Source: Halovenus salina (GTDB lineage Archaea > Halobacteriota > Halobacteria > Halobacteriales > Haloarculaceae). From it: a DNA stretch of 64,000 nt. The notes beneath the pieces were generated by a model. That model saw only the letters and a list, made by a program, of their open reading frames with translations. It did no database searches and had not been told where the DNA came from. Made by a program: the position numbers and the translations under genes. Shown in pieces: positions 16,666 through 21,558 of the stretch (its first letter is position 1; each line of letters opens with the position of its first letter). Where the stretch lies: positions 1,054,001 through 1,118,000 of the forward strand of contig NZ_CP112972.1 in NCBI RefSeq assembly GCF_026410925.1. Direction: 5' to 3'.

Positions 16666-16918
16666 CGGTAGTGTTCAGATAAGGATTTACAGTAGTGATT
16701 GAGACGGGGAAAGCTCTCGACTCCCGCGTTCCGAAAGACTCGCCCCGCTCGTCTTTCGTCGTTCCGCTCATGCTATTCGCGGAACACTCGCTGTGCGTGG
16801 TTCGAAAGAGCTGCTCTTTCGTCATCACGAAAGTCTCCGATTTTCGCAGGCCGCCAGGATTTGGCTGAGTCACGGGCAGAAACCGGCTTGGAGATCGGTG
16901 CTTATCTGAACACCGCCG
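16666..16918. mobile_element. 253-bp non-autonomous element with 18-bp inverted ends
   Basis: The ends are CGGTAGTGTTCAGATAAG (16666-16683) and its near-perfect complement at 16901-16918; the 13-bp core GTGTTCAGATAAG is perfectly inverted. No coding region is present. The interior is rich in hairpins, for instance CGAAAGAC/GTCTTTCG, GTTCCGC/GCGGAAC-like and CGAAAGAG/CTCTTTCG. The right 65 bp match 53 of 65 positions at 19314-19378, the end of a transposase remnant, which identifies the likely parent element. No target duplication is obvious. Confidence 0.75.
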
Positions 16919-18985: not shown

Positions 18986-19373
18986 TTAGCCGAGTCCGTG
19001 TTCGTGCCCTGCTGGTAGTCCCTGGCCGTTCGTCTGGTGTTCATCCTTCCAGCCGAACTCATCGTCCAGCACCTCCTCGATCCTATGGAGAAACGCGTCG
19101 TTGAACGTGAAATCGGTCGGAAGTGCTCGCCCGCCACGCCGTGGCCGGGCGAGCACTGCCCACTGCAACACAACCCACAACTGCTCCAGCAGAAACCCAA
19201 CGCGCACGTAGAACAGCCGAATTGTCGTTGATGGCGTAACATCCTCCCACGGCTGGCCGCCTCGCGGCTTACGTCGTCGGGGTTCCTCGAGGGCGTCTCG
19301 CCCTTTCAGTCCACCAGGGTTCAGCTGAGTCGCGAGCAGAAAATGACTCGTTAATCGGTGCTTATCTGAACAC
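18986..19373 (-). pseudogene. Transposase remnant with one element end
   Basis: Read on the minus strand, the element begins with the inverted end GTGTTCAGATAAG at 19361-19373. About 80 bp later it continues into a protein C-terminus of roughly 95 residues (TIRLFYVRVGFLLEQLWVVLQW, then RRGGRALPTDFTFNDAF, EEVLDDEFGWKDEH) and a stop at 18986. The Trp/Leu-rich helix followed by RGG resembles the C-terminal end of DDE (IS4-like) haloarchaeal transposases. The catalytic core is missing, so this is an internal deletion derivative. An internal 12-bp inverted repeat lies at 19122-19157. The family name is tentative. Confidence 0.6.
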
Positions 19374-19397
19374 CGCCGTAGCGTCGGGTCAGCAGAC

Positions 19398-20593: not shown

Positions 20594-20677
20594 ACGGTAT
20601 CGTTCGCGCGTCGGAAGAAAAGCGTTCGGCGTGACTGGAGGCGGTGTTTCGGTTAACGTGTTGGTTATGGAATGTGA

Positions 20678-20830
20678 AACAGCAAGGCAGTCTCGCCCAA
20701 ATCCGCGTTCGAGGCCGGGCGGGACTGAAAGGGGCGAGTCGTTCGACGAGCGAGACGACCCAAGGACCGCAACGGAGTGAGGACCGCAGCGAGTCGCAGC
20801 CGTCGAACGACTCGGGGCTTTCTTGCTGTT
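20678..20830 (+). ncRNA. Predicted structured RNA element with three nested/sequential stems
   Basis: An outer 9-bp stem pairs AACAGCAAG (20678-20686) with CTTGCTGTT (20822-20830). Inside it are two long hairpins. The first pairs CAGTCTCGCCC (20688-20698) with GGGCGGGACTG (20717-20727), with one G-U. The second pairs CGAGTCGTTCGACG (20735-20748) with CGTCGAACGACTCG (20801-20814), 14 perfect pairs. The enclosed loop has a direct repeat GGACCGCA. The segment lies between two regulator genes and has no credible ORF. The motif GGACTGAAAGGG at 20722 also occurs inside the nearby transposon remnant. Strand is assumed plus. Confidence 0.55.
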
Positions 20831-20871
20831 CTGCCCGCTCTCACTAAGAGTTCTTAAATAAACACCACCGA

Positions 20872-21558
20872 CTAGACGGTCTCGGCGACATCGTCGGGCG
20901 TCGCCGGCGTGACGTGGATAGAGCCAGCGATAGCGTTCGGAATCGAGACTGTCGGCCCATCTTCCAGACGGACGGTTATCATCCCGATTGGCGTAATCTC
21001 GTCGACGGTGAGTTCGGTCCCAGGTGTGAGGCCGACATCCTTGAGATAGTCGAGTTCCTCGGCGTCACGGTCCCGAACTCGTTCGACGACGACCGACTCG
21101 CCTTCGTCGTACTCATCGAGTCGTCCGCCGTCGGTCTCTTCGAGCGGGTCGAGGCTGTCGGTCGGAATCGGGTCACCGTGAGGGTCGACCGCCGGGTCAT
21201 CGAGCGCGTCCGCGACCCGACGCTCGAACTCCTCGCTGATGTGGTGTTCGAGCCGGTCGGCCTCGTCGTGGACCTCGGCCCAGTCGTAGTCCAGTTGCTC
21301 GGCGAGGTAGGTCTCGATGAGGCGATGATGACGGAGAACTTCGAGCGCGACCGTCTCCCCTTCCGGCGTGAGCTCGACGCCGCTGTATTTCTCGCGGTCG
21401 ACGAGCTCGCGGTCTTCGAGTTTCTCCATCATGCTCGTGACCGTCGGCGGCGTCACGTCCATATACTCCGCGATGCTGGAGGTTGAAACAGGAGCGCCCT
21501 CTATCTCCTTGAGCTCGTAGACCGCCTTCAGATAGTCCTCCATCTTCGCGCTCAACAT
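20872..21558 (-). CDS. DtxR-family metal-dependent transcriptional regulator
   Basis: 228 residues from MLSAKMEDYLKAVYEL. The winged HTH is at ~5-60 (PVSTSSIAEYMDVTPPTVTSMMEKL). A dimerisation/metal-binding helical region with HHRLIETYLAEQLDYDW and HDEADRLEHHISEEFE follows, including the His and Glu metal ligands expected in the family. The last ~75 residues form a FeoA/SH3-like domain. The family represses iron or manganese uptake genes when metal-loaded; haloarchaeal members include SirR/Idr types. It is divergent from hsp20 with about 100 bp between, containing an 8-bp inverted repeat. Confidence 0.92.
   Translation of the reverse strand: MLSAKMEDYLKAVYELKEIEGAPVSTSSIAEYMDVTPPTVTSMMEKLEDRELVDREKYSGVELTPEGETVALEVLRHHRLIETYLAEQLDYDWAEVHDEADRLEHHISEEFERRVADALDDPAVDPHGDPIPTDSLDPLEETDGGRLDEYDEGESVVVERVRDRDAEELDYLKDVGLTPGTELTVDEITPIGMITVRLEDGPTVSIPNAIAGSIHVTPATPDDVAETV

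Follow-up and report, generated by a model that had tools for sequence, protein, structure and literature searches.

Between two regulator genes of Halovenus salina, in the 64,000-nucleotide stretch of DNA analysed here (the window), lie 153 nt (20678-20830) that can be folded into three long stems. The flanking genes, both on the minus strand, encode a DtxR-like and an Lrp/AsnC-TRASH regulator. What is this structure, and does it belong to the locus at all? The reading that appears rather probable is that it represents a decayed member of a haloarchaeal family of non-autonomous interspersed repeats, and that it would have moved, folded and been deleted as proposed below. This reading draws on the homology, copy number, distribution, covariation and head-to-head pairing of the copies, and on the IS6-type terminal repeats and 8-bp target duplications present in a subset of them.

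A letter-by-letter check found the three stems of the first-pass annotation at the positions and lengths it had given: an outer stem of a perfect 9 bp (20678-20686 with 20822-20830), a second of 11 bp with one G-U (20688-20698 with 20717-20727) and a third of a perfect 14 bp (20735-20748 with 20801-20814). The description as strongly folded also held, with folding energies below those of shuffled sequences on both strands (z-score -3.96 on the plus strand, 1 of 200 shuffles as good; -5.62 on the minus strand, 0 of 200). The stretch had been said to lack an ORF; two mechanical ORFs of 67 and 68 aa cross it, and there is no other of at least 60 aa. The direct repeat GGACCGCA reported inside the large loop is present at 20764-20771 and 20781-20788. 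According to the family model described below, each of its GGACC words supplies one strand of an apical helix, which has an A·A at its centre, and the second pair of this helix is C-G in 14 of 28 copies and G-C in the other 14.

A BLAST search of the same genome with 20640-20860 as query returned 12 places, including the query's own and split pieces. Three other copies are 92-97% identical across the core, with divergent outer flanks. From 29 copies a covariance model, R1, was built, which gives a single unit in the window, at 20716-20830. The parts recognized in the window are as follows.

20640-20869, plus strand: MITE-like element carrying the structured unit, from a paralogue alignment in which own-genome copies share sequence out to both ends
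20640-20656, plus strand: IS6-type terminal inverted repeat of the left side, with the degenerate sequence GGCGGTGTTTCGGTTAA (scoring 10 of 15 bases)
20853-20869, minus strand: IS6-type terminal inverted repeat of the right side, with the sequence GGTGGTGTTTATTTAAG (scoring 12 of 15 bases)
20678-20698, minus strand: what is left of a second unit in inverted orientation, with the 3' end CTTGCTGTT joined to the 5' end GGGCGAGACTG
20716-20830, plus strand: structured unit of the haloarchaeal family (R1, 138.5 bits, E 2.9e-25; itself one of the 29 copies from which R1 was built)
20735-20748, plus strand: 5' arm of the main variable stem, pairing with 20801-20814
20801-20814, plus strand: 3' arm of the main variable stem, pairing with 20735-20748
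20764-20785, plus strand: apical helix GGACC / GGACC with central A·A, from the family model
19255-19312, minus strand: 5' half of a second unit copy, truncated, the origin of the shared GGACTGAAAGGG motif
19361-19377, minus strand: IS6-type terminal repeat GGCGGTGTTCAGATAAG, upstream of the truncated unit

In an alignment of 29 copies from many genera (A2), the unit begins with GGGYGGGACTGAAAGGGGC, followed by a 12-14 bp stem of freely changing sequence. Inward of this variable stem lie a small inner helix, the conserved loop strands GACGCAA and GCAGCGA, and an apical GSACC/GGASC helix; on the 3' side, the closing arm of the stem is followed by GGGGCTTTC. The RNAalifold consensus of A2 contains 29 pairs, 18 of them with double changes, and the compensatory changes that the first-pass annotation had proposed to look for in homologues are therefore present. 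In total, 132 cells are changed on both sides, compared with 38.8 in shuffles that do not keep the relatedness among copies (0 of 500 reach 132), and the shuffles score 0.131 for covariation where the alignment scores 0.426. The score drops to about 0.05 when one arm is slid by 1-3 columns, a comparison that is inflated, the structure having been derived from the same alignment. In most of the haloarchaeal genera sampled, matched mutations preserve the same detailed structure, with a GGG/GGG internal loop and the inner loop strands staying unpaired across copies. Miniature elements usually drift once immobile; this gene-less haloarchaeal repeat instead keeps its detailed structure. A G-quadruplex was considered and rejected: conserved G-tracts occur among the units, 133 of 149 having GGGnGGG ahead of the core, yet a quadruplex appeared in the minimum-energy fold of 0 of the 60 units checked, the first 60 of the 149.

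The three stems do not make up one fold, as had been supposed, and hence not one RNA, since two of them derive from an inverted pair of units. Among 104 clusters of strictly matching units, a set that does not include the window copy, 22 are head-to-head pairs, three are tail-to-tail and 79 are single. A full pair has its two 5' ends (CCCGCCC...GGGCGGG) turned towards one another and its 3' ends on the outside. The left unit of the window consists of its two ends alone, AACAGCAAG and CAGTCTCGCCC; thus, the 11-bp stem forms between the two 5' ends and the 9-bp stem between the two 3' ends, and the 14-bp stem alone of the three belongs to the ~115-nt unit itself. Two other loci (L003 and L006) carry deletions similar to those of the window copy, and intact head-to-head pairs are present elsewhere. 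An inverted pair would have entered the window locus as one MITE, and an internal deletion may then have removed most of the left unit. The window copy is damaged and truncated, without the upstream module of a longer form of the unit, and is probably a non-functional remnant that still folds strongly.

The motif said to recur 1.4 kb away does so: an exact GGACTGAAAGGG lies at 19301-19312 on the minus strand. With up to two mismatches the motif is no commoner than chance (three found, 4.9 expected). Within 19272-19312 on the minus strand, the motif, a stem arm and GAACCCCGACGACG follow one another as in full units such as L031. The pattern GGACTGAAAGGG-N(12-20)-GAACCCCGACGACG occurs once in the window and in 0 of 100 shuffles, a chance figure obtained after the fact, as the pattern was composed once the resemblance of the site to full units had been noticed. 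R1 does not detect the half unit at 19255-19312 at E<=1. Judged by its sequence, the 19301 motif is half of a second unit next to an ISH3 remnant, in the order IS6-type end, half unit and C-terminal part of an ISH3-family transposase. Over 84 aa, this transposase remnant (18986-19240, minus strand) shares 88% identity with a copy from a Halococcus plasmid. ISH3 was considered as the mover of the family and rejected, the ends in two of three plasmid copies (GCTAGTTGTCCACTCT, L039 and L040) being different.

R1 matches were found in 226 of 293 genomes of the haloarchaeal order, representing 70 of 87 genera, in a scan that scored at most 12 candidates per genome and gave 11 matches in the H. salina genome. 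Six genomes of one genus (g25), scored more fully, hold 86, 46, 85, 66, 10 and 48 copies; the genome with 10 (G104) stands beside congeners with 46-86 (G059, G075, G087, G097 and G118), a spread of more than eightfold at most. A phylum-wide draw of 246 genomes yielded 36 with an R1 match, all 36 from the same order. BLAST matched 53 of 97 genomes, the own genome included, and an exact-pattern scan of a genome collection found 56 stretches, all with a haloarchaeal title. A viral origin was dismissed, there being no match in viral contigs (one exact pattern) or in a phage collection. Among 23 matching plasmid records, 22 list no feature beneath the match, the gene table consulted being incomplete; of three annotated plasmid copies, two are intergenic and one lies within a gene called hypothetical. 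The family thereby gives annotators a label for gaps now left blank. At one g25 locus the long form is common to several species, with parts missing in some, and copies can thus be old.

Part of the family moves as IS6-type MITEs, as shown for some copies. The H. salina genome contains 41 exact copies of GTGTTCAGATAAG and none of a reversed control. Such ends flank shorter elements as well as a 697-bp IS, the product of which has a match at 4.9e-57 to NF033587, the model of the IS6 transposase. Ten paired-end elements of this genome could be read and two further ones could not; perfect 8-bp duplications flank three of five full IS and three of five MITEs. In the 200 flanks of 100 unit clusters, a score of at least 12 is reached by IS6-type ends 12 times when they point inward and 0 times when they point outward, and 11 of the 12 sit 40-57 nt from the unit; 89 of the 100 clusters have no clear IS6-type ends. 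Strong ends are present at 11 clusters, and four of these have target duplications of at least 6/8, compared with 0 of the 89 remaining clusters and 0 of 110 crossed pairs, in a scan that covered 30-75 nt from the unit and in which L003 and L006, both cluster loci, were not counted as hits. A flexible scan for 8-bp duplications gave no excess (one of 100, L019, against 0, 0 and 1 in controls). The clearest case is L019, in a relative's genome, where a complete head-to-head pair of 343 bp has a duplication of 8/8; L116 has 7/8. At own-genome loci the matches are 7/8 (L003), 7/8 (L006), 4/8 (L004), 2/8 (L008), 0/8 (L002) and 2/8 (L005). IS6-type transposases would move IS6-ended copies in trans, the 697-bp IS with similar ends being resident.

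For the window copy, the IS6 route is only suggested. The element has no transposase gene, is multicopy and shares its genome with an autonomous IS with similar ends. Its own ends are degenerate, with scores reached in 57 of 2000 random stretches on the left (at least 10) and six of 2000 on the right (at least 12). Outside the predicted ends the duplication match is 1/8, and a one-base shift gives 6/8 by eye. In g25 there is no excess of IS6-type ends (26 units; best inward and best outward scores both 11), and these copies, which have the longer form and in some cases 3' tandem arrays, likely use another mode of spreading. Elsewhere in the window, 16667-16917 is a 251-bp MITE with IS6-type ends GGTAGTGTTCAGATAAG / GGCGGTGTTCAGATAAG and no matching 8-bp duplication, and a 275-bp IS6-type MITE of the same genome (L078) carries only the apical part of the unit, at 1597-1644 of that locus (model positions 40-79, E 0.0018).

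Several known systems resemble the family in part. ISFinder lists MITEHarch3, the name of which we read as haloarchaeal, under IS6 (available part of PMC6807381). IS6-type MITEs are likewise short, without a transposase and with IS6-type repeats, show an 8-bp duplication in some copies and have a transposase available in trans; compared with such MITEs in general, the present family has a haloarchaea-wide covarying unit, often head-to-head, and most of its copies lack recognizable IS6 ends. Bacterial REP/BIME/REPIN sequences, as far as the sources available describe them, are also high-copy intergenic palindromes in inverted pairs, but with units of 20-40 nt rather than ~115 nt. REP/BIME are associated with a Y1 transposase, whereas no Y1-type match was found in G059, G087, G097 or G118 (86, 85, 66 and 48 copies); Y1_Tnp was present in 21 of 30 genomes. 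A description of the family itself was not found in a literature search that included exact 12-mers of the motif and had supplements and most subscription papers outside its scope, nor in the available parts of PMC12306157, PMC10969869, PMC12558985 and PMC5852579.

In the available part of PMC3119063, MITEs, PATEs and SMRs are described from Haloquadratum, and the mobilization of small repeats is called enigmatic. SMR-A and PATE of Haloquadratum walsbyi are gene-less, palindromic and of high copy number, and SMR-A, at ~110 bp with prominent inverted ends and up to 54 copies per genome, comes close to the present unit. That the family is an SMR-A or PATE-type element already described there is nevertheless improbable: by the description in that part of the source, SMR-A has no target duplications and inserts into IS605-type palindromes and PATE is IS605-related and without terminal inverted repeats, whereas a subset of unit copies has 8-bp duplications and IS6-type ends. 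Less likely still is a regulatory RNA or attenuator specific to this locus, a role to which the position of the fold might point, as it starts 84 bp upstream of the AsnC-type start codon and stops 41 bp before the DtxR-type stop codon. The element is missing at the orthologous place in a congener (G003), where the intergenic region is not conserved, and other copies lie beside unrelated genes with no strong orientation bias. The interval of G003 matching 20634-20872 holds ~114 bp of non-aligning, unrelated sequence, so that the empty site is not clean. Since the element is missing there and the window copy is truncated, the independent ncRNA of the first-pass annotation is unlikely as well.

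Structured RNAs linked to mobile elements are known in the omega-RNAs of TnpB and the HEARO of IscB, and a TnpB guide scaffold left after loss of its gene had been offered as an example. The unit is RNA-like, structured, tied to mobile elements and of plausible size, and the genome has 23 places with a TnpB C-terminal domain. None of the 23 adjoins a confident unit copy, however, the nearest being a weak BLAST hit (E 7e-4) ~1.5 kb off, and R1 finds nothing in 20 of the 23 tnpB loci, searched with 1.5-kb flanks; run on 20 tnpB and 14 IS/MITE loci, it matched only the partial unit in L078. No true neighbour gene is common to more than four of 104 unit clusters, and thus no recurrent cis nuclease gene accompanies the family; the largest groups of candidate partner genes (10, 10, 7 and 6 clusters) are mostly ORFs overlapping the repeat, and a cis-acting partner was rejected. 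The recognizable ends are IS6-type. A search of Rfam, in which HEARO is presumably included, gave no family match at gathering or relaxed thresholds; hits to eukaryotic miRNA families in L002 and to psbNH in L163 were set aside as chance. The RRXRR domain of IscB (PF14239) was found in 0 of 30 genomes in a search whose controls were silent too, and which is not proof of absence. A TnpB or IscB guide scaffold that has outlived its nuclease gene is therefore the least credible of the readings considered. Of the original interpretation, the structured element, the compensatory change in homologues, the mobile-element link and the related 19301 motif stand, and the single RNA and the TnpB scaffold do not.

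Whether the repeat matters as RNA or as DNA is a closer question. At stem positions 1-12 of 130 distinct strict units (119 stem types), there are 59 G·U and 11 A·C mismatches, and under a stricter filter (first ten positions, 115 stems with at least 7/10 pairs) 25 and five. By genome group, 18 favour G·U and three A·C, with 50 of 71 tied (sign test p 0.0007); the groups were set by hand and are not phylogenetically independent, some loci of one genome being kept separate. On double-stranded DNA, G·U and A·C would be expected equally, and the excess of G·U thus suggests selection on the plus strand as RNA. It is possible, as a tentative proposal, that the family constitutes an unrecognized haloarchaea-wide class of structured RNA, acting in trans and under selection across ~70 genera, with IS6-type MITEs as partial vehicles. 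Such RNAs, ~115 or ~250 nt long depending on the form, with up to ~86 copies per genome, would probably be bound by a host or transposase protein. As read from these patterns, the plus strand would be transcribed and act as RNA, which would keep the structure and let G·U be tolerated more often than A·C; the most likely role would be a selfish one, as a protein-binding or stabilizing scaffold of the element itself.

A purely DNA-level palindromic MITE, in which the hairpin matters as a cruciform or single-stranded DNA or has no role and covariation stems from correction within the palindrome during replication or repair, seems somewhat doubtful. It would fit the low total of wobble pairs (25 G·U in 1150 cells), unusual for plain RNA, as well as the head-to-head inverted pairs and the IS6-type ends with a perfect 8-bp duplication at L019. 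Most units lie in the gaps between genes. Their gene context, near neutral at 42 and 31 tandem, 28 divergent and 25 convergent among 126 placed units, is also compatible with it and fits an independent mobile element rather than a cis-regulator; the count used crude ORF-based gene calls and left out 40 of 166 units (19 inside an ORF call, 19 without calls and two too far). A terminator or 3'-UTR role was rejected, the same units having no strong orientation or context bias. However, DNA-level correction does not predict the 25 to 5 preference for G·U over A·C, and it should pair the GGG/GGG loop and inner loop strands that are kept unpaired, a point from which the step to RNA is an inference. 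If the RNA reading is true, haloarchaea hold up to dozens of copies of an undescribed RNA, and R1 is ready for a search for partner proteins; if the DNA reading is true, the family is a clear case for studying how long palindromes remain perfect.

The short form of the unit measures ~115 nt and the long form ~250 nt, the latter with an upstream module GCGAGGG ... GGCTGGGGAGG. Upstream words such as GAGGGAYGAG or GGYTGGGGAGG accompany 27 of 126 units, counted before the g25 loci were added. A search expression requiring GCGAGGG, GGGGAGG, AAAGGGGC and GGGGCTT in order found 38 long copies, of which 35 remained by length and position and 27 were aligned (A6) after one genus was thinned. The words demanded by the expression are invariant by construction in A6; conservation beyond them extends, for example, to the GG-T that precedes GGGGAGG and to most of the apical portion of the core. 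The A6 consensus has 32 pairs, 22 with double changes, all 22 within the core. Wobble changes in the first helix of the long form were dropped as support, as the selecting expression fixes most of that helix.

No conserved promoter was found upstream of units. In some g25 copies (L175, L178, L184, L185, L189, L191, L195 and L201), TATA-like words lie ~13-24 nt before the long form, just upstream of GG(T)GGCGCG, and such words recur inside the 3' tandem units. The usual archaeal TATA distance would not put a start before the structure at this spacing. A long-form promoter was set aside, the words being limited to some g25 copies and their spacing unfit; a target preference is another possible reading of them. 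The 3' end of the long form is repeated in tandem at L191 (1609-1868; 57 bp x 4.6), L100 (1599-1795; 45 bp x 4.4), L125, L142, L155, L179 and L195. The tandem unit consists of the closing arm, GGGGCTTT and the next ~30-50 nt, and differs by locus.
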